This document shows positions 9,511-60,466 of a stretch of 64,000 nt of DNA, one piece after another. The DNA is taken from NCBI RefSeq assembly GCF_000159995.1, contig NZ_GG700643.1, forward strand, positions 799,195 through 863,194, in the 5' to 3' direction. Source of the DNA: Alloprevotella tannerae ATCC 51259 (GTDB lineage: Bacteria; Bacteroidota; Bacteroidia; Bacteroidales; Bacteroidaceae). The notes beneath the pieces are model-generated. The model was not told where the DNA came from. It was given only the letters and a program-made list of their open reading frames with translations, and ran no database searches. Every line of letters starts with the position of its first letter. The first letter of the stretch is position 1. Both the position numbers and the translations under genes were made by a program.

Positions 9511-9619
9511 AACTTTCACCTGTGATCGGAAAAAGTTTCTTAGGTAAAAGTTTGAACTTTCTTATAGGCAAATTAAAATTGTCTTATAGGAGAATTTTTC
9601 GATCATAGGTGAAAGTTTG
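9511..9619 (+). repeat. 22-nt periodic array, family a, five units
   Basis: Units start at about 9516, 9538, 9560, 9582 and 9603. They are built from recurring half-blocks (TCTTATAGG, GATCATAGG, GGTGAAAGTTT, AGAATT). The first unit, ACTTTCACCTGTGATCG, is the near reverse complement of the last, CGATCATAGGTGAAAGT. Not CRISPR: there are no spacers between repeats. Confidence 0.8.
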
Positions 9620-9743
9620 GCGGAGGTGAGCAGTGGGTTGTGGCGGGGTGGTTTATTCGGCATTTTTATAGCCGAATATGCGATGAAACCGCCGTTTTTT
9701 TGAATAATTTTATTTTTGTGTTGATGCATTTTCGCGTGTTTTT

Positions 9744-9850
9744 GAAAGACCAACCCTATGGGGTTGTCATTTTTTTCGGGGCTTCGAGGCAGGGTTGACG
9801 CAATGCGTCAACCCTGCCCTACCAAGAGACTAACCCCGATGGGGTTATTG
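9744..9850 (-). repeat. 105-bp three-hairpin repeat, copy 2 (inverted)
   Basis: Reads GAAAGACCAACCCTATGGGG, then GGCAGGGTTGACG with CGTCAACCCTGCC as a perfect central hairpin, then TAACCCCGATGGGGTTA. It aligns with the reverse complement of the copies at 8722, 13529 and 13700, differing mainly in the central loop. Confidence 0.8.
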
Positions 9851-10375
9851 GCGGAATAAATTGGGCGAAAGTTGCGTAAAATTGGACGAGCTATTGACAT
9901 TTTTATAGTAGAGAGCGTAGAATGGGGGTTATTGGTGGGCAAAGTGAGGTTTTTTGTGAGTGAGAGTGCGCGGGAATTATGCCATTTTTAAGCACTCTCT
10001 TCATTTAAGAGACAGGACGCTCCTTACGCCTTTGAAACCTTATAAAAAGCAACTAAGCGAAGCTCACGCCCCGCTTAGTCTGCCTGATCTAATACAATAG
10101 ATGCTTACCCGAACGCTATCGGATAATTAAGTCTATAGGATGAGGCGACAATACTCTGCCGCAGAGTCCCATTTAATTTGATCATAACCAGTATTCTTTC
10201 TTGCGAAAAACGATTTAACTCTTCTATAGACGATGCAAAGTTAACGCTTATTTTAATTCGCTGCTTGTAATCAGCACAATTATTTTGAGTTTTTTTAGTG
10301 ATATGACCTCGATTTTGCTTATTTCCCCCGTTTTTCTCGGATTTAGATGCGCCGTAAACGCCTTTTCTACCCTTT
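9851..10375. other. Non-coding stretch between HU copy 1 and alaS
   Basis: No gene is supported. The only structure seen is an 8-bp inverted repeat, ACTAAGCG / CGCTTAGT (10052-10079), which read leftward is followed by a T-rich run and could be a second terminator behind alaS. Confidence 0.5.
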
Positions 10376-10380
10376 TATTA

Positions 10381-10421
10381 AACGACTTCGGCGCCTTTGT
10401 AAAAAGAGCGCCGAAGTCGTT
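10381..10421 (-). terminator. Terminator of alaS
   Basis: A perfect 14-bp inverted repeat, AACGACTTCGGCGC with GCGCCGAAGTCGTT, separated by 13 nt, lies about 55 nt behind the alaS stop. Only a short T run follows, so termination may be imperfect; it could act in both directions. Confidence 0.65.
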
Positions 10422-10477
10422 AATGATTACAAATCCGATTTTGTGCGGACTATTTTATATAAGATGTGTATGCAGTA

Positions 10478-13102
10478 TTAAATGCCGGCCAACTCTACCA
10501 CTTTATCTACAGCCGCAGTAAGCCCGTTGAGATCTTTACCGCCGGCCGTGGCGAAGTGAGGCGCTCCGCCGCCACCACCTTTAATCAGTTTTGCAGCTTC
10601 GCGCACCAATTGGCCCGCGTTAAGTTGCTTGCTTTCTACTAATTGCTTGCTAATCATAACTGTCAGCAAGGGCTTCCCACCTTGGTGGCTACCGATGACG
10701 CAGAACAAGTTCTCCGGCAATTGTGCGGACAACTGGAAGGCCAGATCCTTTATCAGATCGGGCGCCCACTCATCTTTGACTACATATTTCAAGAGCTTAA
10801 TGTCGCCGCGATTCTCCGCTATCTTCATCAACTCTTTGCCGAGTTCTTTTACGCGTAGCTGCATAAACTTCTCCACCTCTTTCTTCAACTCGTCATTTTC
10901 TTCGATGGCATTATGCACAGCAACGGAGATATCTTTCACATTATTGAAGAGCGCGCGCAGATCGTTGAGCGTATCGTGTTGCCGGTAGCACATTTCTTCA
11001 GCTGCCTCTGCCGTTACGGCTTCGATACGGCGGATACCTGCTGCAACACTGCTTTCGCTCACAATGCGGAACAAGCCAATGCGGCCCGTGCTGCGGACGT
11101 GGCAACCGCCGCAAAACTCTACGCTTTTGTCAAATTGAACTACGCGCACGCGGTCGCCGTACTTTTCACCAAAAAGCGCAATAGCGCCCATCCTCTTTGC
11201 CTCTTCTATGGGCACATCACGGTGATCTTGCAGCGGAATATCTTCGCGTATGCGGCGGTTAATGATGCGCTCTACTTGGCGCAACTCTTCCGGTGTGACT
11301 TTTTGGTAGTGAGAAAGGTCGAAGCGCAAATAAGTGGGCGTTACGAGCGATCCCTTCTGCTCTACGTGCGCACCCAACACTTCGCGCAGGGCTTGGTCGA
11401 GCAAGTGGGTTGCCGAGTGGTTGGCTTCGCACGAGCGGCGAGCCGCCTCGTCTACTTCTGCCATAAACTCTGCCGCAGGATTCTCCGGCAGGCGCTTAGT
11501 TAGGTGAATCGACAGATTATTTTCCTGCTTCGTATCGAAGATTTCCACTGTTTCGTTCGCACTGCGCAATACGCCGCTATCACCGACTTGTCCACCCATT
11601 TCAGCATAAAACGGTGTCGTGTCGATGACTAATTCATAATACGTTTGTTTCTTTTGCTGCACTTTGCGATAGCGGAGAATGTGACACGCTTGGCGAAGTG
11701 TATCCCAACCTACGAAGTGCGATTCGCCTTCGCTCAAGATGACCCAATCGCCCGTTTCTACGCTTGCGGCACTGCGTGCGCGCTCTTTCTGTCGCTGCAT
11801 TTCTACGTTAAATCCGTCTTCATCTACTTTCAGTCCGTTTTCGGCGCAGATCAGTTCGGTCAAATCGAGCGGGAAACCGTAAGTGTCGAAGAGCGTAAAA
11901 GCTTTTTCGCCTTTTACAACACTGCTGCCGCCGTCTTTCGTCTCTTTCATCACGCCTTCAAGCAGCGAGATACCCGTGGCGAGTGTGCGCAGGAAACTGT
12001 CTTCCTCTTCTTTCATCACGCGCGTAATCAAATCGCGCTGCGCAGCGAGTTCCGGATAAGCCTCGCCCATCTCCTCTACGAGCGTCGGTACAAGCCGATA
12101 CATAAAGGCCTCTTTCTGATCTAAGAAGGTATAAGCATAGCGCACGGCACGGCGCAAGATGCGACGAATCACGTAGCCGGCTTTCGCATTGGAGGGCAAC
12201 TGCCCATCGGCAATGCTGAACGAGATGGCACGCAAGTGGTCGGCGATGACGCGCATTGCGATGTCCGTCTCCGTTGATTCGCCATAGCGGCGGCCCGAGA
12301 GTTCTGCAATTTTATTCAGAATAGGGCGGAAGACGTCGGTATCATAATTCGACTGCTTTCCCTGCATCACCATACAGAGACGCTCAAAGCCCATACCCGT
12401 ATCAATTACGCGCTGCGGCAGAGCATCCAGTGTACCGTCGGCTTTGCGGTTATATTGCATAAAGACGAGATTCCAAATCTCAATCACCTGCGGATGATCT
12501 TTATTGATCAATTCGCGTCCTGCTACGGCCGCCTTTTCTTCGGCCGAGCGTATGTCTATATGGATTTCCGAGCAAGGTCCGCAAGGGCCCGTCTCACCCA
12601 TTTCCCAGAAGTTGTCGTGCTTATTGCCATTGATGATGTGGTCTTCGGGGAAATGACGGCCCCAGATGGCTGCCGCCTCATCATCTCTCGAAAGGCCCTC
12701 ATCGGGTGAACCTTCAAAGACAGTCACATAAAGGTTGGCGGGGTCTATTTTCAAGACGCCGACTAAATATTCATAAGCAAACTCGATGGCTTCTTCCTTA
12801 AAGTAGTCGCCAAAACTCCAGTTGCCCAGCATCTCAAACATCGTATGATGATACGTATCGCGGCCCACCTCTTCGAGGTCGTTGTGCTTGCCGCTAACGC
12901 GCAGACACTTTTGCGAGTCCGTCTGTCGGCGACTTTTAGGTTCACGATGGCCGAGGATGATGTCTTTAAACTGATTCATTCCGGCATTGGTAAACATCAG
13001 TGTGGGATCATCTTTGATCACCATAGGGGCAGAGGGTACGATCAAATGCCCTTTGCTCTCAAAGAATCTTTTGAAAGATTCGCGTATCTCGTTAGCTGTC
13101 AT
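10478..13102 (-). CDS. alaS: Alanine--tRNA ligase
   Basis: An 874-residue, full-length AlaRS, which charges tRNA-Ala in the cytoplasm. The N-terminus [19 protein letters not shown] and the catalytic block [11 protein letters not shown] are diagnostic. The editing domain has the zinc motif HSATH (in [12 protein letters not shown]) plus CGGCHVR, and the C-terminal domain ends with [16 protein letters not shown]. It has its own promoter (13208-13177). It is transcribed alone and is flanked by the two duplicated HU modules, which are both on the opposite strand. Confidence 0.98.
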
Positions 13103-13176
13103 ATTCTTTTGTTTTATGGCTCACCCGTCAATGGTCAGCCATTTATTGTGCGCATAAAAGTGCTGTCTATCTTTTG

Positions 13177-13208
13177 CAAAATTAGTAGAAATATGCTTGA
13201 AGCACAAA
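13177..13208 (-). promoter_or_regulatory. Promoter of alaS
   Basis: On the minus strand TTTG (13208-13205), a 20-nt spacer and TAATTTTG (13184-13177), about 70 nt upstream of the ATG. Confidence 0.65.
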
Positions 13209-13307
13209 CATTGAGCCGCCTTTTGTAAAATATGTTGCACAAGAAGTCTTTCACTGCCTTTTAGGCTGAGTCCTTCACGGTCTCCGCCGGCGGGCATTCG
13301 CTTGTTT

Positions 13308-13414
13308 TGAAAGACCAACCCTAAGGGGTTGTCAATTTACTTATGCTTTGAGGCAGGGTTGACGTGCAACGTCAACCCTGCCCTACCAAAAGACTAACCC
13401 CGATGGGGTTATTG
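13308..13414 (-). repeat. 105-bp three-hairpin repeat, copy 3 (inverted)
   Basis: GAAAGACCAACCCTAAGGGG, then a perfect hairpin GGCAGGGTTGACGT / ACGTCAACCCTGCC, then TAACCCCGATGGGGTTA. Same orientation as the copy at 9744, on the other side of alaS. Confidence 0.8.
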
Positions 13415-13528
13415 ATGGACGAAACTATGCGGAAACGATATAATTTCAAGCGGAAAATCTGACACGCATACGTGTTATTGATCCAAAGCAATTATAAACT
13501 CGAATGTAAACGCGCAAAACATCCCCAG

Positions 13529-13630
13529 CAAGCCCTTAGGCTTGGTCTTTTGGCAGGGCAGGCGTTGGAGCGAAGCGACAACCCTGCCATAGTTCGCCGC
13601 AAAAGGGCAACCCCTTAGGGTTGGTCTCTC
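13529..13630 (+). repeat. 105-bp three-hairpin repeat, copy 4 (forward)
   Basis: Nearly identical to copies at 8722 and 13700 over the AAGCCCTTAGGCTTGG start, the TGGCAGGG/CCCTGCCA hairpin and the CAACCCCTTAGGGTTGG end. Only about 70 nt separate it from copy 5. Confidence 0.85.
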
Positions 13631-13699
13631 AAAACCGTCCACATATAGGCGTGTAAATACACAGATAAACCCAAACTACCAAAGCTCACTCCCGTACCA

Positions 13700-13800
13700 C
13701 AAGCCCTTAGGCTTGGTCTTTTGGCAGGGCAGGCGTTGGAGCGAAGCGACAACCCTGCCATAGTCCGTCGCAAAAATGCAACCCCTTAGGGTTGGTCTTT
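13700..13800 (+). repeat. 105-bp three-hairpin repeat, copy 5 (forward)
   Basis: Directly upstream of the second HU-related gene, in the same relative position as copy 1 before the first. Same three hairpins as the other forward copies. Confidence 0.85.
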
Positions 13801-13845
13801 ATATACGTTCGCAGACTGTCTCACTACCAAGCGATTATGGCGTAT

Positions 13846-13876
13846 TTTGCAGGCTCGCCGGAAATGCTTACCTTTG
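13846..13876 (+). promoter_or_regulatory. Promoter of the second HU-related gene
   Basis: TTTG (13846-13849), a 19-nt spacer and TACCTTTG (13869-13876), conserved with the promoter of copy 1. Confidence 0.75.
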
Positions 13877-13937
13877 CATTTGCAAGGGCGGGGAGCGCTC
13901 TTGGTTCAATTATTCTTCAATTAAATCTATACCAACA

Positions 13938-14348
13938 ATGATTAAATTTGTTATTAGAGCGAAGAAAAATCCGCTCAAGAGAGATCAAGTGAAATTTTAT
14001 CCGCAGATGGCGCCGGGCGTGCCCGTAATGCTACCTACGATTGTCGGGCGCATCGAGAAGCGTTCGGGCGTATCTTCTGCCTCCGTTAAGGCGGTATTGG
14101 ATGCCCTGCAATATGAGATTCTCCAAACACTTGCGGACGGTAATTCGGTTCGCTTAGGTGATCTCGGTTCTTTTCGCCTGACGATGCACGGCGAGGGCGC
14201 GTCGACGGCGAAAGAGGCAAAGGAAAAAGGCGCAAATCTCATTAAGCGCGTGAGCGTGAGGTTTACGAAAAGCAGTACGATGCGTATGGCACTCGACAAG
14301 CGCAACTTAATCTTCGGGGCGCAGGATGATATCCGGAATGCGAAGTAG
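13938..14348 (+). CDS. HU-related histone-like DNA-binding protein (copy 2)
   Basis: A 136-residue paralogue of the protein at 8961, with only about a dozen changes. The helix block (PTIVGRIEKRSGVSSASVKA) and arm base (GNSVRLGDLGSFRLTM) are kept, so both copies look functional. The start is set at MIKFVIRAKKNP for the reasons given for copy 1: the promoter box lies within the upstream open frame. Copy 2 is followed by the same terminator and the same 22-nt array. The two modules are parallel and flank alaS. Confidence 0.9.
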   Translation: MIKFVIRAKKNPLKRDQVKFYPQMAPGVPVMLPTIVGRIEKRSGVSSASVKAVLDALQYEILQTLADGNSVRLGDLGSFRLTMHGEGASTAKEAKEKGANLIKRVSVRFTKSSTMRMALDKRNLIFGAQDDIRNAK

Positions 14349-14400
14349 TTGAAGATTAAGGCACAGCTTAGTGCCGGAAGAAAATTACATTTAACAAAGG

Positions 14401-14433
14401 CCGCGTTTTCAACCGATGAAAGCGCGGTTTTTT
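14401..14433 (+). terminator. Terminator after HU-related copy 2
   Basis: CCGCGTTTTC pairs with GAAAGCGCGG around a 7-nt loop, followed by six T. Third occurrence of this hairpin in the window. Confidence 0.85.
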
Positions 14434-14488
14434 CGTGCTTTGTCGAAAAAGGACCGTTTTTCGGTGGCGTAGGGATAAGGATTGGTTA

Positions 14489-14598
14489 AACTTTCACCTA
14501 TGATCGGAAAAATTGTCTTAGGTGAAAGTTTGAAGAGAGTTATAGGAGAATTAAAATTGTCTTATAGGAGAATTTCAACGATCATAGGTGAAAGTTTG
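14489..14598 (+). repeat. 22-nt periodic array, family a, five units
   Basis: Units start at 14494, 14516, 14538, 14560 and 14582, an exact 22-nt period. The first unit (ACTTTCACCTATGATCG) is the reverse complement of the last (CGATCATAGGTGAAAGT). The array is closely similar to the one at 9511 but with point differences. Confidence 0.85.
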
Positions 14599-14689
14599 GC
14601 GGCGATGCGCAGCGGGTTGCGACGGGGTGGTTGGGATTGGATTTTTATAGCCGAATATGCGATAAAATCACGGTTTTTTGCGCTTTTTT

Positions 14690-15070
14690 CGTTTTGCATC
14701 CATACAAAAACACGCCATTCTTCGCTATGGGGAACTAAAAATAGCTACCCTTTGGGCTTTTTTTCTTACAGAGTATGTCGTGGTTGCGTTGCTACTCTGC
14801 GTAAAAGCTGACCGAATATAGAGCATTTTGTGGGTTGCGGGGGTGTGTTTTTCTGCCTGTCGCCGTGAATAATCACCGCACGCCGGCGTAAAAAATGCGT
14901 ATGAGCGTCAGGCGATAAATGATCAAAGATGTAAATTAAAAATGAAAGTTTAGCGACTGATTTTTAACTATTTCTCAGCTATTTTGCGTGTAAATTTTGG
15001 GTTATGGAAGGCTGTATATGTAACTTTGTATTGATTTTTGCGATAGCCACTATCGAAACAATCCGTTGTC
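14690..15070. other. Non-coding stretch
   Basis: No gene supported. A possible promoter (TTTG at 14996-14999, TAACTTTG at 15021-15028, spacer 21 nt) and a 7-bp inverted repeat CAGAGTA/TACTCTG near 14768-14798 are the only structures noted. Confidence 0.45.
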
Positions 15071-15074
15071 AATC

Positions 15075-15106
15075 CTTGTGGAGCGTTGGGCGTAAGGCTA
15101 CTTTTG
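15075..15106 (+). promoter_or_regulatory. Promoter of the 41-residue membrane protein gene
   Basis: CTTG (15075-15078), a 20-nt spacer and TACTTTTG (15099-15106), leaving a leader of about 20 nt before the ATG at 15134. Confidence 0.6.
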
Positions 15107-15133
15107 CAGCGTTAACTCAAAACAAATAGAATT

Positions 15134-15259
15134 ATGACTAATCAAACAATTGGAATGATCATTGCGGCAGTCGTCGTACTATTTATTATCTTTGACGCCG
15201 TTTATTGCTTCAAATCCGACCAACTTGCAAAAAATGAGGATTACGAAGACGAAGATTGA
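15134..15259 (+). CDS. Small single-pass membrane protein (41 residues)
   Basis: MTNQTIGMIIAAVVVLFIIF is a hydrophobic segment of about 18 residues after a short polar N-terminus. It is followed by a short soluble tail ending in a run of acidic residues (NEDYEDED). A well-formed promoter sits at the right distance and the frame ends in TGA before the LysR gene. I do not recognise a family. Predicted topology is one transmembrane helix with an acidic tail. It lies upstream of, and in the same direction as, a LysR regulator. Confidence 0.6.
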   Translation: MTNQTIGMIIAAVVVLFIIFDAVYCFKSDQLAKNEDYEDED

Positions 15260-15384
15260 CTATAAACTCAACTCAGACGCATAGGGGCGGGTAGCGTACT
15301 CGTTGATGGCTGGCTGTAAGTGTGGCCGGCGGAACGATGCTTAAGTGGCACGCTGTTGCTCCAGCGCTCAGTATAACAGAACGC

Positions 15385-16284
15385 ATGGAACTACGCCAAC
15401 TTCACTACTTTATAGCTGTAGCCGAACAACTTAATTTTTCGACGGCTGCCAAGTCGCTTTGCATTACACAAAGTACCTTATCACAGCAAATAAAACAACT
15501 GGAGGAGGAGTTGGGCGTAAGACTCTTAGAACGCAATAGTCACGAGGTTGTGCTCACAGAACCGGGTGAAGCATTTCTGCCCAATGCGCGGCGTACTATT
15601 GATGATGCAGAAACGAGTAAACTGTATATTCGAGATCTACAACATCTTAAGACCGGCGTGCTGAATGTGGGAGTCACGTATTCGTTTCACCCGATTATGA
15701 CGGAGACGGTGCTGACCTTTATGCGGCGCTTTCCGGCAATTCGCCTGAATATCTTTTATAAGCGTATGGAAGATTTGCTGGAGGATTTGCAAAAACGACA
15801 AGTCGACTTTGTGCTTTCTTACAAGCCCTTGCATGCGCTTCCGTCCATTAAAAGTAGGGAACTCTTTCGTACACAACTTGCGGCTATTACGGCTGTGGAC
15901 CATCCGCTTGCCGAACAGAAAAGCGTCACGTTAAAGGAGTTGGCACAATATGATTTGGCGTTGCCGACGAACGGCTTGCAAGCGCGCAACTTCTTTAATC
16001 GTTTTGCCGAAAAATCGGATTTGCATTTTAATGTGCGCTTTCAGCTCAATGTGGTCCATATGCTCCTTGATTTAGTGGGGCGCAGTCGGTTGGTTTCTGT
16101 GCTATCGGCCTCGACGGTAAAGGGGCATCAAGAGGTGGTGGCTATTCCGATTGATCTGCCTGAAAATGAAATGATCGGTTGTATACATACACTCGAGGGT
16201 GCTTATGAGAAGAATGCGGCCAAAGAGTTTTTGCAACTGCTGCGGCAGCAGAACGACCTGCAAGAAATGGTAAATAGTATGTAG
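15385..16284 (+). CDS. LysR family transcriptional regulator (CynR-like)
   Basis: 299 residues from MELRQLHYF, the canonical LysR N-terminus; the open frame extends 21 codons upstream, but that stretch is not family-like. The winged HTH reads LNFSTAAKSLCITQSTLSQQIKQLEEELG. The C-terminal substrate-binding domain follows, with the typical GVLNVGVTYSF strand opening it. Its target cannot be deduced; no divergent gene is present, and the only close upstream neighbour is the small membrane protein. It converges with the acyltransferase gene through a perfect terminator hairpin. Confidence 0.92.
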   Translation: MELRQLHYFIAVAEQLNFSTAAKSLCITQSTLSQQIKQLEEELGVRLLERNSHEVVLTEPGEAFLPNARRTIDDAETSKLYIRDLQHLKTGVLNVGVTYSFHPIMTETVLTFMRRFPAIRLNIFYKRMEDLLEDLQKRQVDFVLSYKPLHALPSIKSRELFRTQLAAITAVDHPLAEQKSVTLKELAQYDLALPTNGLQARNFFNRFAEKSDLHFNVRFQLNVVHMLLDLVGRSRLVSVLSASTVKGHQEVVAIPIDLPENEMIGCIHTLEGAYEKNAAKEFLQLLRQQNDLQEMVNSM

Positions 16285-16324
16285 GCCCATTGCCCACGTC
16301 GGGCTGTTTATTAGCCCACCCAAA

Positions 16325-16379
16325 AAGTAAACGATGCGCATTTCCCGCGAGAAATGCGCATCGTTTGTATTCTCAAAAG
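16325..16379. repeat. 55-bp direct repeat containing a terminator, copy 1
   Basis: Identical base for base to 17731-17785. It contains a perfect 16-bp inverted repeat AAACGATGCGCATTTC / GAAATGCGCATCGTTT with a 6-nt loop, which can terminate both the LysR gene and the oncoming acyltransferase gene. Confidence 0.9.
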
Positions 16380-16398
16380 TGTAGTGATATTTGAAGTT

Positions 16399-17403: not shown

Positions 17404-17433
17404 CTTTTTAGTGCATTTCGTTAAATTTGCTTG

Positions 17434-17464
17434 CAAAGATATGGACTCTAATGCACATATCAAA
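17434..17464 (-). promoter_or_regulatory. Promoter of the acyltransferase gene
   Basis: Minus-strand TTTG (17464-17461), a 19-nt spacer and TATCTTTG (17441-17434), about 30 nt before the ATG. It decides the start, since the longer frame would begin inside the -33 box. Confidence 0.7.
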
Positions 17465-17730: not shown

Positions 17731-17785
17731 AAGTAAACGATGCGCATTTCCCGCGAGAAATGCGCATCGTTTGTATTCTCAAAAG
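17731..17785. repeat. 55-bp direct repeat containing a terminator, copy 2
   Basis: Identical to 16325-16379. Here it serves as the terminator of the leftward peptide transporter gene, which ends 42 nt away. Confidence 0.9.
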
Positions 17786-27246: not shown

Positions 27247-27557
27247 AAGTTCCCGTTTATTTAGCGTGCTAAAAAGAGGGAGGCGAACGCTGTTTCGTTC
27301 GTGTCCCCGCTTATTGGCGAAGGCGCGCGGCCTTCATTGGTGAAAGAAAATCGGGCGCAAAGATACTAAAAAACTACCGGATGGCCAACATGCGTCCCGC
27401 AGATACTGCCGCGAGCAAGACTAAACAAGCCTTCGCTCTACGTTTCCCGATTGCGGTCCGGACGTGTGTGCCCTACGTTCCGTTTTTGCCGCTCCGCAAC
27501 GCGCATTTCGCGTCGCGCGGCCTGCTTTCTTGCTGCTTCGCTTGCCCTTTGTGGGCT
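27247..27557. other. GC-rich non-coding stretch upstream of the MATE gene
   Basis: It contains the probable MATE promoter (TATCTTTG on the minus strand, 27365-27358). No gene is supported; frames here lack protein-like composition. Confidence 0.45.
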
Positions 27558-27558
27558 T

Positions 27559-27648
27559 ACGCTCACGAGCGTAGACCTTTTTTCTCACGAGCGCAAACCC
27601 TTTTCATCGTGAGCGCAAACCTTTTTTCTCGTGATGAAAAACCTCTGC
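27559..27648. repeat. 22-nt periodic array, family c, four units
   Basis: Cores CACGAG, CACGAG, CGTGAG and CGTGAT start at 27564, 27586, 27608 and 27630: exactly 22 nt each. Units share GCGCAAACCTTTT-type flanks, and the core changes strand halfway through while keeping the register. A sister array lies at 60377. Confidence 0.8.
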
Positions 27649-37647: not shown

Positions 37648-38246
37648 GAGACGGCGGAGGGGCGCCGCGGCCGTCTTCTTCGTTACATATGACCCTTGTC
37701 GCACACAGGCCGCACAAAGCAACGACAAGCGTATTTGAACTTAGCAAATAAACTTGTCAAAGAAGAATGAAATTAAGAACCAAAGTTGTCAACTAATTCT
37801 AGGACATTACAAGTAGATGCTGCCGCGCGAGCTTGTCTTAAGCCTATTTTGCGCGCGCTGCGTAGCCTTTTGATTGCCCCACTTGTTGAGACAAAATTTC
37901 CTACATATAGGAACTTTATTTCCCCTATTCGGAATTTTTTTCCTCCTTATTGGAATTCTTTTCTCCCCTTGTTGGGGCAATAAAACATAAGCACTCCCGC
38001 GGCCGACAGAGCTAAAGGGCGGCGCGATACTTAGGGGTGAGTGGTAAAAAGGAAGTAGTTGGGTCTGTTTGGTCTTAACGAAGGGTCAAAATATAAGGAC
38101 ATAACTACAAATGAGAGCTATGGCAAATTAAGGAAGAGGGGAGAACTTGCGCCTCGCTTGCCCGGATCGTGTGGTAGCGTGTGTTAAGACCTGTCGAAGT
38201 GCTTTTGGAAAAATGAGGTGTCGAAGTTGTACTACGTAAGATATAA
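37648..38246. other. Non-coding gap between convergent genes
   Basis: Apart from the periodic array at 37893-37978 and the terminator beginning at 38247, nothing gene-like is seen on either strand. Confidence 0.45.
37893..37978. repeat. 21-22 nt periodic array, family b, four units
   Basis: Four successive small dyads: TTTCCTACATATAGGAA, TTTCCCCTATTCGGAA, TTTCCTCCTTATTGGAA and TTCTCCCCTTGTTGGGG. Their right arms start at 37910, 37931, 37952 and 37974. The sequence differs from families a and c, but the period and the small-dyad design are the same. Confidence 0.7.
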
Positions 38247-45308: not shown

Positions 45309-46112
45309 CTGCTTGTCGATCATTTATGGTTGATCTTTGGCAAAAAAACAGCTTGAAACATTACTCTTAATTTGATTTGGCCAAGGCCTTACTTCCGTTT
45401 CACGAATGTGCACATACCTCTTCTTATGTCATCATATAGGCTGCAAAGGCTTCTTTATTAAGCGGCGTATATCAAAACCGAGCCTCTAATACGCAATTTT
45501 TATCAAGCTTTTAGTTTTTGTTTATGGGTCATTACCAATATGCGGAAGAAAGCTAAGCAGCTTAGGCTCTTTATTAAAAGGCTTTTCAGATATAGCCCGA
45601 AAAGGCTTATTGCAGTCCGCCCGCAAAAGTAGAAACTTAAGCAAGAATTTAGCCCTTCAAGCAGAGATCGGTAGTTTGTCTTATTTAAAATAAGACAATC
45701 ATAGTTTCGTCTCTTTGAAAAGTAGGAGATTATGGCATCAGCATGCAGGATTAGGACGGCAATGCGCCTTGTCCGGCAAGCCTCATAGCGCATCATTTTT
45801 CGCCTGCACGTAGCCTCGAAAAATGAGCTTAGGAGCGTGCTTAAACTTTCATAGGAGATCGCAAAAATTCTCTTAGGTGATCGGAAAAACTTTCTCCTAT
45901 GATCGAAAAAATTGTCTTATAAGACAATTTTTCTTCTCTTATAGGAAAGTTTTAGGCTTCCTTAATGGTTTGAAAATCAGGCGCGTTTTGCGCTGTTTCG
46001 GCCCTGTTTTTTGCCTGCCGATGCTTCACCTTGACTTTTGGCTTTGGATGTGTCGGTATGTGAAATCAAGAATACGCCTTACGCTTACGCAGCATTGCTT
46101 CAAGAAAACTGA
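45309..46112. other. Non-coding gap
   Basis: Apart from the periodic array at 45845-45953 no gene, promoter or transposon end was recognised. The longer open frames here lack domain-like sequence. Confidence 0.45.
45845..45953. repeat. 22-nt periodic array, family a, five units
   Basis: Units start at 45849, 45871, 45893, 45915 and 45937, an exact 22-nt period. They contain TCATAGGAGATCG, TCTTAGGTGATCGG, TCTCCTATGATCG, TCTTATAAGAC and TCTTATAGGAAAG. The fourth unit is a perfect 20-nt palindrome (45910-45929). Unlike the arrays at 9511 and 14489 there is no HU-related gene beside it. Confidence 0.85.
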
Positions 46113-53048: not shown

Positions 53049-53057
53049 TGTATTTCC

Positions 53058-54329
53058 TTATCTGATCTTCAATGTGATGATGGCTGCTGCGGCCAGCAAG
53101 ATGGTTGTAATCCAAAAGCGGACGGTAATTTTCGACTCGTGCCACGTGCCGCGCGGCCAATTTTTTAGCAAATAACGGCACTCCGGATCAAGTTGCTTGC
53201 CCAAGACCCTGAAGTTGTCGTGAATCGGTGTGCGCTTAAAGATTCTACGCTTCAAGCCTTTGCGCTTGAAGAATTTGAAATATTCTACTTGTAAGATCAC
53301 ACTCAGACTTTCTACAAAGAAGATGAAGCAGAGTAGCGGGAGAAGGAGTTCTTTGTGGGTAATGATGGCCAATACGCCAATCAGACCGCCAATGGTAAGT
53401 GAGCCGGTATCGCCCATAAATATTTGGGCGGGGTAGGCGTTGTACCACAAAAAACCGATGAGCGCTCCAATCATCGCAAAGATAAAGATGACTAGTTCCT
53501 CTGACCCTGGAATGTACATAATGTTTAGGTATCCGGCCCATTGGACGTGTCCGGATACGTAGGCAAAGATGGCCAGCGCTATGCAGATAATGGCCGAATT
53601 GCCGGCGGCCATACCATCCATTCCGTCGTTGAGGTTCGCGCCGTTGGAGACGGCAGTGATCACGAAGATGGTCATCAGTACGAAGAGAATCCAGCCTACT
53701 GCTTGCTTGTGTTCGCCTACAAATGAAACGATTTCGGCATAGTCGAGGTTGTGGTTCTTTACAAATGGGATGGTCGTCTGCGTAGCCTTGACGGGCTGAC
53801 TCTTATGCTTGACGACCGTCACGTGGTTGACGTTGACAGTTTCTACATTCTCGTGTATCACGGCATCCGGACTTAGATAAAGCGTCAAGCCTATGCCTAA
53901 GCCCAAGACTACTTGTCCTAGGATTTTGTAGCGTCCGGGCAAGCCGTCTTTCTTCTTCTTAAAGATCTTGATATAGTCGTCTAAGAAGCCGATGATGCCC
54001 AACCAAACCGTAGAAATGATCATCAATATAAGGTAGATATTGCGAAGACGACCGAGTAAAAGTACGGGTACGAGAATAGCTATAATAATGATGATGCCGC
54101 CCATTGAGGGCACATTCAACTTCTGCGTACCAAAGGGGTCGATGGTTGCATCGCGCTGTGTCTCACTAATGTTCTTGCGCTTCATGAGTTTGATGAAATA
54201 CTCGCCAAACCACGTGGATATGATCAGCGCAAGCATCAATGCAAGCAGGGCGCGGAAGGAGGTGTAGCTCCATAGGCCGGAACCGGGTACGCCAATGCTT
54301 TCTAATGCGCGGAAGAGATAGTATAACAT
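53058..54329 (-). CDS. mraY: Phospho-N-acetylmuramoyl-pentapeptide-transferase
   Basis: 423 residues with ten membrane segments. It makes lipid I from UDP-MurNAc-pentapeptide and undecaprenyl phosphate. Motifs: FLDDYIKIFKKKKDGLPGRY, NGANLNDGMDGMAAG and RRIFKRTPIHDNF. A periplasmic/loop insertion (about 175-210, VNHVTVVKHKSQPVKATQT) makes it longer than the ~360-residue E. coli enzyme, as is usual in Bacteroidetes. Confidence 0.97.
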   Translation of the reverse strand: MLYYLFRALESIGVPGSGLWSYTSFRALLALMLALIISTWFGEYFIKLMKRKNISETQRDATIDPFGTQKLNVPSMGGIIIIIAILVPVLLLGRLRNIYLILMIISTVWLGIIGFLDDYIKIFKKKKDGLPGRYKILGQVVLGLGIGLTLYLSPDAVIHENVETVNVNHVTVVKHKSQPVKATQTTIPFVKNHNLDYAEIVSFVGEHKQAVGWILFVLMTIFVITAVSNGANLNDGMDGMAAGNSAIICIALAIFAYVSGHVQWAGYLNIMYIPGSEELVIFIFAMIGALIGFLWYNAYPAQIFMGDTGSLTIGGLIGVLAIITHKELLLPLLCFIFFVESLSVILQVEYFKFFKRKGLKRRIFKRTPIHDNFRVLGKQLDPECRYLLKNWPRGTWHESKITVRFWITTILLAAAAIITLKIR

Positions 54330-54352
54330 ATCTGAAAGTCTTTGGTGGGCGC

Positions 54353-55816
54353 TTATGCTTCTAATCCGAAAGCCTTGCGCACCTCTTCGTGATCATCAAA
54401 ATGGTGTTTAACGCCTTTGATTTCTTGATAAGGCTCGTGTCCTTTACCCGCTATGAGGATTACATCGCCGGCTTGTGCCATTGCCGCTGCGGCGCGGATG
54501 GCTTCGCGGCGGTCTACGATGGCGATGGTTTTAGCACGTTGCGTTTCATCCAAGCCCGCGAGCATATCATCTACAATAGCTTGCGGCTCTTCAAAGCGCG
54601 GGTTGTCGCTCGTGATGATAACGCGATCGCTACGATTGGCCGCTTCTTGGGCCATCAAGGGGCGCTTACCTTTATCTCGATTGCCGCCGGCGCCGCAAAC
54701 CGTAATCACCTGCGCTTTGCCGTGTACGATTTCATCAATAGACGAGAGCACGTTGGCCAAGGCGTCCGGCGTGTGGGCATAGTCAATGATCGCACTCACG
54801 CCTTTTGGGGAGCGAATGGCTTCAAAGCGTCCGTTGACGGGGTGGAGCGAAGAGAGTACGCGCAAAGTTTCATCGGGAGATACCCCAAGCTCGATGGCTG
54901 CTCCATACACGGCGAGCAGATTAGAGACATTAAAGCGTCCGACAAACCGCACGCTAACTTCGCGACCATTTATTTCGAGCAGCATACCTTCGAGCGACTC
55001 TTCAAGGATCTTTCCTTTGTAGTCGGCCGCTGCTCTCGTGGAATACGTTTTGATGCGAGCCTTTGTATTCTGCACCATAATGGGTCCATTCTTATCGTCG
55101 GCGTTGGTGATAGCAAAAGCCTGTTTGCTCAAGCCGTCAAAGAAAGCCTTCTTAGCGTCGCGATAATTCTCAAAAGTTTTATGATAATCGAGGTGGTCGC
55201 GCGTCAGGTTGGTGAAGAGTGCCCCGGCGAAGTCTAAACCGCCGATTCGCTTTTGATGAATGGCGTGCGAACTACATTCCATAAAAGCATATTCGCAGCC
55301 TTCGTCGGCCATTTCCCCAAGGAGCTTATTTAAGGTTACGGGGTCCGGCGTCGTGTGTTCCGTCGGCACAGCGTGCGTTCCGATATAGTTGCATACCGTA
55401 GAGCAAAGGCCACACTTAAAGCCGAGTTCCGTAAACAGATGATACAATACAGTGGCAATTGTCGTTTTTCCGTTTGTGCCCGTCACACCAACAAGTTTCA
55501 AGCGTTGCGTAGGATCTCCATAAAATGTAGTAGCCACTTTCCCGATCGCATCTTCCGTGTCCGCCACACGCACAAAGGTGACGTCGGTCGGCGTTTCAGC
55601 CGGAATGGGTTCACTAACCAAGATCGCCGAAGCGCCTTTTTCAATCGCGCCGGCAATAAAAGCGTGCCCATCAGTCTGCGTGCCTTTGACAGCCACAAAG
55701 AGATTGCCCTTTTCAACTAAGCGCGAATCCATGTTCACGCCGTTAATATCAATAGTGAGGCTCCCTCGCGTTTCGAGGGGACTGATTTTCTGCAAGAGGT
55801 CCGACAATTTCATCAT
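54353..55816 (-). CDS. murE: UDP-MurNAc-tripeptide ligase (meso-diaminopimelate-adding)
   Basis: 487 residues. The ATP loop [16 protein letters not shown] and the C-terminal DNPRFEEP are present. DNPR is the signature of enzymes that add meso-diaminopimelate rather than lysine, which fixes the peptidoglycan type of the organism. Two adjacent ATG codons open the frame. It is 49 nt behind ftsI and 23 nt ahead of mraY. Confidence 0.97.
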
Positions 55817-55865
55817 GTATATATATTGTATGCGTTGAATGATTTACTGACACTGAAGGCGGGCA

Positions 55866-58487
55866 TTATTTCTTTTTGCCCTTGTTCGGTGTAGTATTCG
55901 TTGTTGTTGATTCTTTTTTCTTTCCGCTCGTTCCGGATGCCGACGAAGCGGGTTTAGGTTTCGATTTTCCGGCGGCTTCCGCCGTGGTTTTCGCATTTGC
56001 CTTCGGCTTGTCTTTGGGCTTATCTTTGGTAGCCGTCTTGGGCTTGTCCTTTGCCTTGTTCTCCTCCGTTCGGCGCTGCGGCGTAGCTTCGCGTGTCCCA
56101 GTTCGTGCCGGTTCTTTTGGCTTATCCTTCGGCTTCTCCGTATTGGTCACTTTCGGTTTTTCTGGTTTGATGCCCTCTTTAGCTGGTTTAGCTTGCGGCT
56201 TTTCGGGCTTGGGTGTGGGCGCCGGCGTGTTAGTTGTTGCCGGTGTCGCGTTCTCCGGAGCAGCTTGTTGCGCAGGTTCAGTAGCTGCTTCTTCTTCGGT
56301 CGCCGCCATCTCCTGCACTTCTGCGCCTTCTCCCAAAATGAGGTTGACGTGTTCTCCGCGCTTGATCTTCGCACCCGGCGGAATACTTTGCGCCGTCACG
56401 CGTCCGATGCCTGCGCAGTTTACCAACAAGCCTGCTTGCTCGAGACGGAATACCGCATCACGCAAACCATAGCCGCGCACATCGGGCATTTCGTCTTTCG
56501 GCGTCAACTTATTTGCCAGCGAAACGCTGCCGGAGCGCGTAGCACACGTTCCCCAGATCACGCCGTCCGCATTGCCGCCCACGTTCGTTGAGTGCGGGAT
56601 GCCAAAGACGTCCAAAAGATAATTTGCAGCCAGAATGTTACCCGGGTTAACGATGGGTAGCGGAATATTTACCGAGTCTCGTGCAACCGTATAATCCGTT
56701 AAGCGATCCTGTGCCATCACCGTTTCCGCGATGCGTTTGAACACCGGCCCGCAATCCAGCGCGCCGCCCGCACTGCCGGCCTTTTCGATGCAGACAATGC
56801 AAGAATAGCGCGGCGCTTCTGAGGGGAAATAGCCGGCGAAGGAAACGAGATATTCAGCCGAGCGGCCGTGAGCCGTCCAAACCTGTGCCGTTCCGGTTTT
56901 GCCTGAGATGTGGAAAAGTTTGGAGTTGATCTTTCGTCCGACGCCGTCAGTCACCACGGCGCGCAGACAAGCCTGCACATCCTTGATAGCCTCCGGTTTC
57001 GCCATCTGTTCGCGAACAACGATAGGCGGCTTTTCCTCGATGACCTCTCCGTTGCGCAAGATTGCTTTGATGAAGCGTGGGCGCATCATCTTACCATCGT
57101 TGGCAATGCCGTTGTAAAAAGTCAGCGTACTAATAGGTGGTATCTGCGTTACGTAGCCAATACTCATCCACGGCAAGTCCGTCTTTGCCCAGCGGTCGCC
57201 TAAGTCGCGCGGACGGCGAATGCGAGGCTTGGCATAGCCCGGAATGGGGATGCGCAAATCTTCGCCGACGCCGGTCGCGTAGATCCCGTCAACGAATTTA
57301 TCAGGGTTGTTGCCGTAGAAACGATCGATAAACTTGCTGACGCCGACGTTCGACGAGTTAGCAATACACATTCGTGCCGTCAAGCGCCCGTAGCCACCAT
57401 TGCGCCAGTTGTGGTCTTTCATTTTTCGGCCGTGCATTTCTATAATGCCATAGCCGGTGTCTACTTGGTCGTTGAGGTGAAGAAAGCCATCGTTGAAGGC
57501 CACCAAGAACGACATCGGTTTGAATACCGATCCCGGTTCCATCAAGTTGCTTACCGCCTTGTTGGAGATTTCATGAAACGAGCCATCGCCCACGCGCGAC
57601 AGACTTGAGATCGCTTTGACGTCGCCCGTCTTGACATCCATCACAATAGCCACGCCAAAGTTTACCTGCCCACGCCCTTCTCCCTGAATTTCGCGCAAGC
57701 GGTCGCCCAGCGCCTTTTGTGTAATGTCCTGCATCGCAATGTTGAGCGTCGTTTGCACGTCGCAGCCGTCTTCTGCCGGAAGGTCTACGATGCTTAAGTA
57801 TTGATTGAGCACTTTTTGCCGGTGGTAGCGCCCGGGCTTGCCGCGCAAGATCGCGTCGTAAGTCTTTTCGATGCCGCTTCGCGCCTCATCTTTCCCGCGA
57901 TAGAGGTCGCCGACGGTGCGCGGCGCCAAAGCGCCGAAGGGATTAACGCGAGTTCTGAACGTTTCGACGTGGAAGCCGCCGCGATAGGGGGCTAAGCGCA
58001 GCAAGGGCAGCTGCTTCACGCGGCGATATTGTATATAACTGACGCGCTTGGGATAGACTGGCCAGTTTTTACTCTTTTTACGGCGCCCTTCGCGCAAGTG
58101 TTCGGCCAACTTAGCCGGATCTATGTCAGGAAAAATGCGGTGCATCCCCTGACAGATGCTATCCATCTTGACCGTCAGGAGCGAATCGCGGATCAGTTGT
58201 TCTTTATGTTTACGGACCGAGTCATCCATTTCGACCATAAAGTCCATATACATTTTATATTCAGGCAAAGATGCCGCCAAGACCTCCCCATCGTCGGCCA
58301 AAATATTGCCACGCATTGGCGTGAGCGACACATTTCGCCGCTGGAAGCGATCGTTTACCGCCATCCAATAGTCCTTTTTGACGGTCATAATGTAGAGCGA
58401 TTTACCCACAATGACCAGTCCGACAAGCGCCAGGAGTATTGCGATGACCGAAAAGCGCGAACTGAATTTGTCTAAATATACTTTCAT
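55866..58487 (-). CDS. ftsI: Division-specific penicillin-binding protein FtsI with PASTA domain and long basic tail
   Basis: 873 residues. Membrane anchor at 12-35; dimerisation domain; transpeptidase with Ser320-x-x-Lys (SVFK), SSN at 378-380 and a KTGTAQVW box near 525. A PASTA domain follows (MPDVRGYGLRDAVFRLEQAG, to about 719). The last ~154 residues are low-complexity, rich in Lys, Pro, Thr, Ala and Glu (KPEKPQAKPAKEGIKPEKPK and KDKPKDKPKANAKTTAEAAG). FtsI crosslinks septal peptidoglycan. The basic tail is outside the membrane and is much longer than in other FtsI proteins I know; it may bind the wall or DNA-like polyanions. It lies 47 nt behind the ftsL-like gene. Confidence 0.94.
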   Translation of the reverse strand: MKVYLDKFSSRFSVIAILLALVGLVIVGKSLYIMTVKKDYWMAVNDRFQRRNVSLTPMRGNILADDGEVLAASLPEYKMYMDFMVEMDDSVRKHKEQLIRDSLLTVKMDSICQGMHRIFPDIDPAKLAEHLREGRRKKSKNWPVYPKRVSYIQYRRVKQLPLLRLAPYRGGFHVETFRTRVNPFGALAPRTVGDLYRGKDEARSGIEKTYDAILRGKPGRYHRQKVLNQYLSIVDLPAEDGCDVQTTLNIAMQDITQKALGDRLREIQGEGRGQVNFGVAIVMDVKTGDVKAISSLSRVGDGSFHEISNKAVSNLMEPGSVFKPMSFLVAFNDGFLHLNDQVDTGYGIIEMHGRKMKDHNWRNGGYGRLTARMCIANSSNVGVSKFIDRFYGNNPDKFVDGIYATGVGEDLRIPIPGYAKPRIRRPRDLGDRWAKTDLPWMSIGYVTQIPPISTLTFYNGIANDGKMMRPRFIKAILRNGEVIEEKPPIVVREQMAKPEAIKDVQACLRAVVTDGVGRKINSKLFHISGKTGTAQVWTAHGRSAEYLVSFAGYFPSEAPRYSCIVCIEKAGSAGGALDCGPVFKRIAETVMAQDRLTDYTVARDSVNIPLPIVNPGNILAANYLLDVFGIPHSTNVGGNADGVIWGTCATRSGSVSLANKLTPKDEMPDVRGYGLRDAVFRLEQAGLLVNCAGIGRVTAQSIPPGAKIKRGEHVNLILGEGAEVQEMAATEEEAATEPAQQAAPENATPATTNTPAPTPKPEKPQAKPAKEGIKPEKPKVTNTEKPKDKPKEPARTGTREATPQRRTEENKAKDKPKTATKDKPKDKPKANAKTTAEAAGKSKPKPASSASGTSGKKKESTTTNTTPNKGKKK

Positions 58488-58534
58488 GTTTTAAAGCCTG
58501 TAACTTTTCCTAAAACTGTCCGGGCAACAAGCCA

Positions 58535-59059
58535 TTAAGGCTGTTTGCTACTCGAGGAAGTCTCAGCCTCTACAGGCAAGTTATAATTGGGCGTCGTCGA
58601 CGTATGGAGCGTCGTGTCAGCCAGATGCTCTTCTACGCTGCTGCGGCGTGTCATTTCTTTCAATTGTCCGGAGAGCGTCAGCGCCTTGTAGCGTCTGTCG
58701 AGCAGCGTGTCGGCCAAATGCGTCCCTTCGATCATTTGCTGCTGGCACGCATAGCGATTGCCAACGTAAAGGAGACACATGACGATGATCATCACAATAT
58801 ACCAAAAATGCCGGCGAAACCAAGCACCCGCCAAGATGTCGCCACCGAGAATGGCGCGCAGGGATAGCGAGCGTCGGAGGTTAAACTCCTCCTCTCCCGT
58901 CAGGTTCTTGAAGGCCCGCTTCGCTTTCGTTTCGTTGTCGTCTTCAGTCTGCTTTTGGGGCGTTTCAGTGCGGCGATGGCGCTGCTTTTCAGCCGCCGAC
59001 CGCTCCAAGGCTTCTATCACCTTTCGTCCGTCTGTTTTCTCGTCAGTTGTTTTTGTCAT
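58535..59059 (-). CDS. FtsL-like cell division protein
   Basis: 174 residues from MTKTTDEKTDGRKVIEALER; a longer frame would overlap rsmH. A highly charged cytoplasmic N-terminus of about 85 residues precedes one membrane segment (FWYIVMIIVMCLLYVGNRYA) and a short periplasmic coiled part. Position between rsmH and ftsI, and topology, are those of FtsL, although the sequence itself is poorly conserved, as usual for FtsL. It starts 5 nt behind rsmH. Confidence 0.8.
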   Translation of the reverse strand: MTKTTDEKTDGRKVIEALERSAAEKQRHRRTETPQKQTEDDNETKAKRAFKNLTGEEEFNLRRSLSLRAILGGDILAGAWFRRHFWYIVMIIVMCLLYVGNRYACQQQMIEGTHLADTLLDRRYKALTLSGQLKEMTRRSSVEEHLADTTLHTSTTPNYNLPVEAETSSSSKQP

Positions 59060-59064
59060 GGGTC

Positions 59065-60003
59065 TTACTTGCCGTCTATTCGTTCGGCGATGCACTCTCC
59101 GATGCGCAACTTCGCGCTTCGGCTGCGTGGGTTCGCATTCATTTCAGCCTCGTCGGGCCTTATTACACGTCCATTGACGGGTTTCATCGGAGCGAGTCGG
59201 TTGCCGTAGAAGTCTTGTTCGACTTTGCCCGTCGCATTACCGGCTTTGATGAAGTTTTTCACCAAGCGATCTTCAAGCGAATGGTAAGTCAGTATCGCCA
59301 GGCGTCCCCCCGGTTTCAGCAACGTCAGTGCTGCCGTCAGCATAGCTTCCAAGGCCTCCATTTCGTGGTTCACCTCGATGCGCAGGGCTTGAAACACCTT
59401 GGCCATATCCTTCTTCGCGCGGGCTGCGCCGAGATAGGGCGTAACGACGTCGACCAATTGCTCCACGCGCTCAATCGGCGCGGCGGCGCGGGCCTTGATG
59501 ATGGCCGCGGCCAAGCGGCGCCCATTGTTGAGTTCGCCGTAGAGATAAAACAGGTTTGCCAATTGCTCTTCGCTGTACGTATTGACGACGCCGGCCGCTG
59601 AGGTGTGCGCGCGTTTGTTCATCCGCATATCCAGCGCCCCTTCAAAGCGAAAGGAGAACCCCCTGTCGGCCGCATCGAAGTGGTGACTGGAAACGCCCAA
59701 GTCGGCCAAAATGCCATCGACCTGCGCATAGCCGTAATAGTGCAGCCAGTTTGGCAGATAGCGAAAATTGCTTTGCACAAAGGTCAGTCGATCTTCGCCG
59801 GCCGGAATATTGCGTTGCGCGTCGGCATCTTGGTCAAAAGCCAGCAAGCGCCCGTTAGGGCCCAATCGGCGCAAGATCTCCCGACTATGACCGCCCCCGC
59901 CGAAGGTGCAATCGACGTAGCAGCCATCCGGCCGAACGTTTAATCCGTCCACTGTGGTTTGCAGCAGTACGGGAATGTGGTAATCGGGAGCAGCGTCAGT
60001 CAT
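59065..60003 (-). CDS. rsmH: 16S rRNA (cytosine(1402)-N4)-methyltransferase
   Basis: 312 residues. Motifs: HIPVLLQTTVDGL, the SAM site DCTFGGGGHSREIL, and GILADLGVSSHHFD. The C-terminal part has ILTYHSLEDRLVKNF. It methylates N4 of C1402 in 16S rRNA, the same base whose ribose RsmI modifies. It heads the dcw cluster here; mraZ, which normally precedes it, is absent. A TATTTTTG box (60044-60037) lies about 35 nt upstream. Confidence 0.97.
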   Translation of the reverse strand: MTDAAPDYHIPVLLQTTVDGLNVRPDGCYVDCTFGGGGHSREILRRLGPNGRLLAFDQDADAQRNIPAGEDRLTFVQSNFRYLPNWLHYYGYAQVDGILADLGVSSHHFDAADRGFSFRFEGALDMRMNKRAHTSAAGVVNTYSEEQLANLFYLYGELNNGRRLAAAIIKARAAAPIERVEQLVDVVTPYLGAARAKKDMAKVFQALRIEVNHEMEALEAMLTAALTLLKPGGRLAILTYHSLEDRLVKNFIKAGNATGKVEQDFYGNRLAPMKPVNGRVIRPDEAEMNANPRSRSAKLRIGECIAERIDGK

Positions 60004-60036
60004 CTCTGAAGATTTTTCTATCGTCTAACCAAACAG

Positions 60037-60044
60037 CAAAAATA
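60037..60044 (-). promoter_or_regulatory. Promoter -7 box of the dcw cluster
   Basis: TATTTTTG on the minus strand, without a clear -33 TTTG at 19-21 nt. Confidence 0.4.
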
Positions 60045-60186
60045 GAGATTATTCTGCACATTTGCCTTTTTTAAGGCAGGAAATCTTATAAAGCGGTTTC
60101 GTTTTGCGTCGCCGTGTGCGGCAGTTGGTCCGGAAGCTCATCGCGAAGGTCTGTTTTTGCTCCTGTAAGGCTCATTTTTGAGGCGC

Positions 60187-60203
60187 TATATATAATAATG
60201 TGT
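60187..60203 (+). repeat. Third copy of the TATAATAATGTGT motif
   Basis: TATATATAATAATGTGT; the same core stands at 672 and 722. The gap between rsmH and the TauE gene otherwise holds only the periodic array and a promoter. Confidence 0.55.
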
Positions 60204-60376
60204 AGTCGGCGGTCAAAATTGGGTGTCGGCGGGCCTGTTGTTGAGGTTTTTTTATCGAATTTTGAGTGGCTTTATCGGTATCGACTATGCGGCCGAGGCT
60301 TTTTGCGCGTCCCTGTGCAAGACTTTATTCGCTGAAGCATAAAGGTAGCGTGGATCAAAGTAGGCCTACTACCTTT

Positions 60377-60466
60377 TTCATCACGACAATAAAGGTTTGC
60401 GCTCACGATAAAAAGACCTTGCGCTCGTGAGAAAAAACCTTTGCGCTCACGATGAAAAATATCGAA
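60377..60466. repeat. 22-nt periodic array, family c, four units
   Basis: Cores CACGAC, CACGAT, CGTGAG and CACGAT start at 60382, 60404, 60426 and 60448, exactly 22 nt each. Flanks AAAGGTTTGCGCT and CTTGCGCT match the array at 27559. The third unit is turned round relative to its neighbours. Confidence 0.8.

Follow-up and report, generated by a model that had tools for sequence, protein, structure and literature searches.

In the 2.59-Mb genome of Alloprevotella tannerae ATCC 51259, a stretch of 64,000 nucleotides (nt) at positions 799195-863194 (contig NZ_GG700643.1), here called the window, carries short intergenic tandem arrays with units of mostly 21-22 nt. Such arrays recur through the genome in several sequence families, the spacing of their units is constrained, and they stand beside genes for HU-HIG proteins, which make up a branch of the HU/IHF superfamily and have expanded in certain Bacteroidales, more often than beside control genes. 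We lean towards the explanation that the arrays are the cognate DNA sites of the HU-HIG proteins, each paralogue binding its own dyad arrays on one face of the helix, with the copy next to the gene serving as its operator. A sequence-only reading of the window had reported seven arrays from three unrelated families and had named HU-related proteins as candidate binders; all seven are present on re-check, three families proved too few (there are about eight in this genome), and a linkage to HU-family genes was indeed found, which suggests binding by their products.

The period is the most general property of the arrays. The main sample consisted of the window and 40 further stretches of this genome (864 kb, about a third of the total), and in it 47 of 50 intergenic tandem arrays with periods of 15-28 nt have a period of 21-22, as compared to two at 15-20 and one at 23-28; counted irrespective of location, arrays at 21-22 number 70. 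Within the first 464 kb (the window and 20 stretches), 39 separate intergenic arrays divide into periods of 22 (24 arrays), 21 (6), 42 (3) and others (6), and in the window itself self-similarity runs scoring at least 18 occur three times at period 22 and never at the other 28 periods tested (range 12-40). Chance does not account for this excess: when the 864-kb sample was regenerated five times from a Markov model, just 3 of the 103 arrays obtained, all periods included, had a period of 21-22. A 22-nt peak elsewhere in intergenic DNA, as expected by the sequence-only reading, is thus seen in this genome, and it is seen in a congener, G099, in which 500 kb contain 3, 29 and 1 intergenic arrays at periods of 15-20, 21-22 and 23-28, respectively, with sequences other than those found here. 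It is not general. Three genomes sampled at 100 kb each (G064, G005 and G009) gave 0, 1 and 1 intergenic arrays at 21-22, the first of these showing that the distribution is patchy even within the genus. The corresponding counts for the three period classes are 24, 23 and 8 in 80 loci of other Bacteroidia, mostly Bacteroidales; 6, 2 and 1 in sampled stretches from 18 genomes that represent other families within the class; 1, 1 and 0 in 20 genomes that fall in the phylum but not in the class; and 4, 1 and 1 in six 50-kb stretches from phyla other than Bacteroidota, with most of the other genomes sampled thinly, at 20-100 kb each, and with thresholds of TRF (Tandem Repeats Finder) that favour clean arrays.

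While the period is shared, the sequences differ. The families of this genome are here designated a to h (d being recognised by eye), two further array types are found beside HU-HIG genes, and about a dozen families can be distinguished by eye in G099, the absence of kinship between families being judged by eye only. One example is family e, with a 21-nt unit GTTTG-N7-CAAAC-N4, which is common in the genome, yet none of its 28 sampled arrays lies in the window. By information content, its element consists of four units TN-GTTTG-SYSSSRS-CAAAC-NA. Another example is family c, whose element measures 88 bp by the same criterion and consists of four units T-N-Y-N-M-TC(AC/GT)GA-K-N-R-N-A plus spacer, with AC at the centre of 64 of the 140 boxes and GT at that of 74, the two being intermixed. 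Both elements, of 84-88 bp, have symmetric invariant positions, sharp ends and random flanks, information content dropping to the background level a few bases beyond the outer units; family a is part of a longer conserved cassette. The unit of family d resembles GTGCGGAGATGGTGAATCGGG by eye and is 21-22 nt long, and at one locus (L014) it continues straight from the downstream end of a family-a array. The number of units is steady as well, with four in 35 of 39 family-c arrays (arrays of at least three boxes), in 25 of 28 family-e arrays (of the other three, two resemble chance matches) and in 7 of 8 arrays of G099 family I. Other numbers occur in family a, with five units here, in family f, with three, and in G099 families II and a, mostly with three. 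A consensus dyad is significant at p<0.05 for 28 of the 122 arrays with period 21-22, for 1 of 46 of period 15-20 and for 3 of 14 of period 23-28, counts that include repeated family members, with most single arrays falling short of significance; family g has no clear dyad by eye. No match to the exact e and c patterns was found in viral contigs.

As to the exactness of spacing, all 87 pairs of neighbouring exact family-c boxes lying 12-32 nt apart in the 864-kb sample are separated by 22 nt, and extension of the range to 60 nt adds six pairs at 44 and one at 36. In the 35 four-box arrays the 14-nt spacers have a mean pairwise divergence of 43% and lie, on average, 3.5-4.8 bases off the consensus; arrays were chained at exact 22-nt steps before units and divergence were counted, while the count of 87 pairs is independent of chaining. 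Family e behaves similarly: in the 864 kb the gap from GTTTG to CAAAC is 7 in 95 cases and has any other length from 0 to 20 at most 8 times, and in the whole genome 96 of the 100 matches listed (of 364) have exactly N4 and N7 where 0-14 was allowed for each gap. The spacing is therefore constrained and not merely inherited, because neutral drift at 43% spacer divergence should have produced insertions and deletions. The exact spacing, the steady unit number, the dyad symmetry of units in many families and the linkage to HU-family genes lend indirect support to the earlier proposal, according to which a protein occupying multiple sites along one DNA face keeps the two-turn spacing under selection; a copying machine that measures 22 nt, also proposed, is possible but not needed. 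The same evidence bears on the view that the arrays are selfish or neutral minisatellites, produced by slippage through hairpin-forming palindromes, with a period that is inherited within each family and functionless, and with HU-HIG genes simply tolerating them. The families are indeed dispersed and species-limited (the exact e pattern matches 1 of 399 genomes of the bacterial family), and the family-a arrays of the window fold strongly as single strands (z -4.7 to -7.8, as compared to -2.3 to -4.9 for family c and -1.7 for b), with some covariation. However, not one off-register pair among 87 neighbours at such divergence, the prevalence of four units in several families, a peak that is missing in Markov controls and in the sampled genomes outside Bacteroidia, and the HU-HIG linkage all speak against slippage, which we consider a fairly unlikely origin.

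The linkage was recognised through family a: each of the 15 full-length copies detected in the genome has a HU-HIG gene upstream of it, gene and array together forming a duplicated cassette of roughly 0.8-1.3 kb. Two of these genes are in the window, and their products, with start codons picked from paralogues, score 82.6 and 81.9 bits against PF18291 (cut-off 26.2) and 82.7 and 81 bits against TIGR01201 (cut-off 68.6); by these profiles they belong to the HU-HIG / HU_rel family, and in sequence they also resemble HU chains of PDB entries (best E=0.0046). As every family-a copy follows such a gene, other HU-HIG genes were inspected, and several loci from other genomes proved to have adjoining 22-nt arrays of other sequence. 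An array was called where self-similarity at 21-23 nt scored at least 16 within 500 bp (400 bp in the third set described below), with genes called by crude open reading frame and codon scores and with the 15 family-a cassettes excluded from the HU-HIG counts. In total, 27 of 61 HU-HIG loci have an adjoining 21-23-nt array. Among the first 41 loci (33 from other genomes and 8 from this one), 19 reach the score, 18 of them upstream, as compared to none of 13 canonical HU genes at the same threshold. Control genes with an array number 65 of 759 in 80 Bacteroidia loci, 61 of 321 in G099 and 107 of 599 in this genome, giving 12/33 versus 65/759 for the other genomes (Fisher 2e-5) and 7/8 versus 107/599 for this genome (Fisher 5e-5), in which comparison control genes adjoin one another and may share one array, while some HU-HIG loci are close paralogues. 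The best upstream period is 21-23 at 21 of 41 HU-HIG loci versus 133 of 765 control genes; downstream there is no enrichment (9/41 versus 167/765). Because the test was suggested by the first 15 loci, the next 18 were counted as a replication, with 5/18 positive by score (p 0.017) and 10/18 by best upstream period versus the same 133/765 (p 4e-4). Another 20 loci, of which seven do not belong to the class, made up the third set, with 8/20 positive by score (p 2e-4; six upstream and two downstream), 7/20 after removal of one low-complexity locus, L368 (p 0.0013), and 8/20 by best upstream period (p 0.016).

The linked arrays mostly have three or four units, and their sequences are unlike between most paralogues. 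Examples are an array like GGTCACGCAGCTGCGTGAC and the 23-nt AACATCCGGATGTT, both in genome G032, one like AAAGTCGTACGACTTT in this genome, and AACTCATTAGCATGACTTGAGT, located downstream, in genome G126. In this genome copies of families c, e and f are found upstream of HU-HIG genes and family a downstream, and of the five HU-HIG genes of G099, three have arrays from families with dispersed members in that genome (a with three units, I with four, and VII), at p 0.05 versus the background of 61/321. Dispersal appears to be optional, since arrays of the types found at loci L365 and L234 were seen at their gene only, with none in the sample, and both known f arrays are HU-HIG-linked. Protein kinship agrees in part with array family, as judged from sequence identities. 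The a-linked HU-HIG of G099 has 69% identity to that of the window, as compared to about 42% for other HU-HIG types of the two genomes; the two f-linked proteins are 91% identical; and the c-, VII- and L234-linked proteins, with 40-48% identity, have different arrays. The number of HU-HIG genes was also considered as a predictor of dispersed arrays and fails, G005 being the counter-example.

A number of observations weigh against the proposed pairing of proteins and arrays. No array above threshold is present at 34 of the 61 tested loci, a fact that would also suit neutral minisatellites, and the cut-off of 16 was picked with the first 15 loci already seen. An array lies within 500 bp of 18-19% of genes in the two array-rich genomes, so that any one linkage found there, for instance that of c or of e, may be due to chance. 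Two of the five G099 genes have none of the seven tested families, and family II, the most frequent of those (11 arrays in 500 kb), has no copy at any of the five. A second G099 HU-HIG (C7) shares 91% identity with the a-linked protein, yet its 1.6-kb stretch is devoid of family-a arrays, while the two e-linked HU-HIGs of this genome are only 25% identical, and one of them sits 432 bp from its array. G005 has 15 HU-HIG genes and no 21-23-nt array of at least 2.5 copies in 100 kb. At one HU-HIG gene (L383, genome G002) more than nine nearly identical 23-nt units lie upstream, unlike the rest and apparently a recent expansion. Covariation between arms is detected for family-c unit 1 (5 of 500 shuffles reach it), weakly for unit 4 (23 of 500), and for family-a units 1-5 (five double-change cells, 33 of 500 shuffles). 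Canonical HU and IHF, moreover, are not known to employ tandem 22-bp dyads.

Such covariation, along with palindromic units that fold well, would be expected if the arrays acted as structured transcripts, for example as terminators or as hairpins at mRNA ends. Yet the arms of the inner family-c units are unlike and without covariation, and the outer centre pair of family e (N1-N7) is complementary in 25 of 96 cases as compared to 46.6 expected, thus less often than expected. The arrays also occupy convergent, tandem and divergent gaps alike, e and c broadly tracking the available intergenic space (e being somewhat more frequent in divergent gaps, 11/28 versus 0.23 available), at median distances to genes of 280-366 bp, and an RNA role for them is very unlikely. 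Recurrent neighbours of c arrays in the 864 kb are limited to a 13-member and a 2-member protein family, each met twice, and family e has none. Dispersal to tens of copies with sharp 84-88-bp ends and random flanks, as in c and e, would suit short mobile elements (similar to miniature inverted-repeat transposable elements, MITEs, or to repetitive extragenic palindromic, REP, sequences) moved in trans, with the units as transposase sub-sites, and the genome has a single Y1_Tnp match, a Y1 transposase gene (L169, 1501-1842), at a distance of about 640 bp from one of the family-a arrays. However, flanks show no excess of direct repeats in either e (27 arrays, 3.96 versus 3.76) or c (39 arrays, 4.08 versus 3.97), and a single Y1 gene would hardly serve many families. 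We see mobility as quite unlikely to be the whole explanation, while as a mode of spread it can be compatible with arrays that are HU-HIG sites. Finally, intrinsic curvature through phased A-tracts might be invoked for families b and c, in which each unit contains an A/T tract by eye, but it is not a shared property because family e and G099 family VII, also by eye, have no such tracts, making this explanation scarcely credible.

The mechanism that we favour, that of HU-HIG proteins with arrays as their cognate sites, can be outlined as follows. Each paralogue type would bind, as dimers, its own dyads of roughly 16-18 bp, three to five of which (four in c, e, I and VII, the families sampled best) are placed two helical turns (21-23 bp) apart, a phasing that would bring the dimers to one face of the helix and allow cooperative packing. 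A HU-HIG gene would control itself through the neighbouring copy, which would serve as operator and is usually located upstream, but downstream in the clade of the two genes of the window. In some genomes, including this one, the element would have been copied to tens of intergenic places, where the dispersed copies may act as binding or nucleoid-organising sites. The period would be conserved because the protein fold is conserved, and the array sequence would be free to change as each paralogue shifts its specificity. HU and IHF are nucleoid proteins with little or one fixed sequence preference. A broader and more tentative idea, possible though doubtful, is that HU-HIG proteins form a diversifying, chromosome-addressing family, with private arrays, self-control and tens of seeded copies making up overlapping, fast-evolving sets of architectural or silencing sites, of which the BrickBuilt minisatellites of Porphyromonas gingivalis (see below) would be a member. 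If true, the pairing of paralogues with private, repeated and fast-changing addresses would represent a new layer of chromosome organisation, or of selfish DNA, in one of the major groups of bacteria from gut and mouth, could explain minisatellites such as BrickBuilt, and could yield protein-DNA address pairs. It also predicts, protein by protein, the outcome of gel-shift experiments.

Features of the window are listed below. The box and core coordinates bear out the exact 22-nt steps reported for the arrays at 14489, 45845, 27559 and 60377, and a strict 21-22-nt period holds for most of the seven, family b being less regular. The arrays had also been placed between genes of unrelated function, which is not the case for the two that follow HU-HIG genes.

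Table. HU-HIG genes and arrays of the window (window coordinates; aa, amino acids)
Feature	Position	Strand	Description
HU-HIG gene (HU/IHF superfamily)	8961..9371	+	136 aa from internal ATG; open frame from 8862; PF18291 E=3.1e-23, PF00216 E=8.3e-8, TIGR01201 HU_rel
Second HU-HIG gene	13938..14348	+	136 aa from internal ATG; PF18291 E=5.2e-23; TIGR01201 HU_rel
Family a array	9510..9618	+	5 dyad units, 109 bp; 22 nt each save one 21-nt unit; ~140 bp 3' of HU-HIG gene
Family a array	14488..14597	+	5 x 22 nt; starts ~140 bp past second HU-HIG gene
Family a remnant	3093..3136	+	Two units; box starts 3100/3122
Family a variant	45843..45953	+	5 units; core starts 45850/45872/45894/45916/45938, all steps 22; no adjoining HU-HIG gene
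Family c tetrad	27555..27642	+	Four 22-nt units around boxes CTC(AC/GT)GAG; box starts 27562/27584/27606/27628, all steps 22
Family c tetrad	60373..60460	-	Four 22-nt units; box starts 60380/60402/60424/60446, all steps 22
Family b array	37894..37977	+	About four units of 20-22 nt; core-match steps 20, 22, 22

Family b has three matching places genome-wide. An Rfam scan of the window returned no match at gathering scores. At 3000-3136, 3' of recG, a terminator-like stretch as in the HU-HIG cassettes is followed by the two remnant family-a units, and the whole looks like a relic of an a-cassette. At 7903-7957, after a DDE transposase gene, there is a 22-nt dyad repeat of two units (TTGTAAAAGGTACCCTTTTACA), possibly another, eroded family. 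Outside the window, a 33-nt repeat (TGAAAAAATCCAAGG...), corresponding to three helical turns, lies upstream of a family-c array (L024); Alloprevotella sp. OH1205 carries 6.5 tandem copies of a 66-nt (3 x 22) unit (L072, 18136-18567); and G099 has a perfect 100-bp tandem duplication taking in an apparent tRNA gene (L328, 14674-14853).

Among known systems, clustered regularly interspaced short palindromic repeats (CRISPR) can be set aside, as they were in the sequence-only reading, correctly so: the units of the arrays are contiguous and without unique spacers. ArgR boxes and plasmid iterons are palindromic or direct-repeat sites about two turns apart that are bound cooperatively on one face, at few loci per genome and with one conserved sequence per system. 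The arrays share the phasing at about two turns, but they occur in tens of copies and several families. REP elements are 20-40-bp palindromes that occur singly, as dimers or in clusters, are tagged with GTAG or CGTC and go with a gene for a Y1 transposase (REP-associated tyrosine transposase, RAYT) (PMC3733652); the likeness is in dispersed intergenic palindromes, some with a cognate gene, and the difference in phased rows linked to an HU-like protein. One Y1_Tnp match stands against several array families in this genome, and GTAG or CGTC tags are absent from the c and e consensus, while G099 family VII units start with CGTC, no systematic search for tags having been made. BldC of Streptomyces is a small MerR-like protein that forms a cooperative head-to-tail oligomer on direct repeats, with sites varying in length (PMC5859096). 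Tandem repeats are common to both, and a cooperative oligomer would be, if the proposal for HU-HIG holds; dyads, an HU-like protein and a steadier unit number set the arrays apart. Literature searches, in which most subscription journals were out of reach, found no paper linking HU-HIG proteins with arrays, and only that on BrickBuilt (PMC4596501) came close. BrickBuilt is the nearest described system: a minisatellite inside a MITE, present in 19 dispersed intergenic copies of 1 to 22.8 imperfect 23-nt tandem repeats, without spacers, with predicted stem-loops, with leader and tail segments and IS5-like terminal inverted repeats, and species-limited (PMC4596501). The arrays described here are likewise intergenic, dispersed, spacerless and species-limited tandem repeats of Bacteroidales with predicted stem-loops; they differ in having mostly four units (c and e), many families per genome and the HU-HIG linkage, in their unit length (22 nt in the window, 20-22 for b, and 21 for e, although some HU-HIG-linked arrays elsewhere have 23), and in that no leader or tail with IS5-like inverted repeats was found in c and e, the families examined. 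While the parts of the BrickBuilt description consulted name no partner protein, Table 1 places one copy, BrickBuilt_14, next to a PF00216 DNA-binding protein of the HU family (PMC4596501), as the explanation of arrays as HU-HIG sites would predict for that copy.

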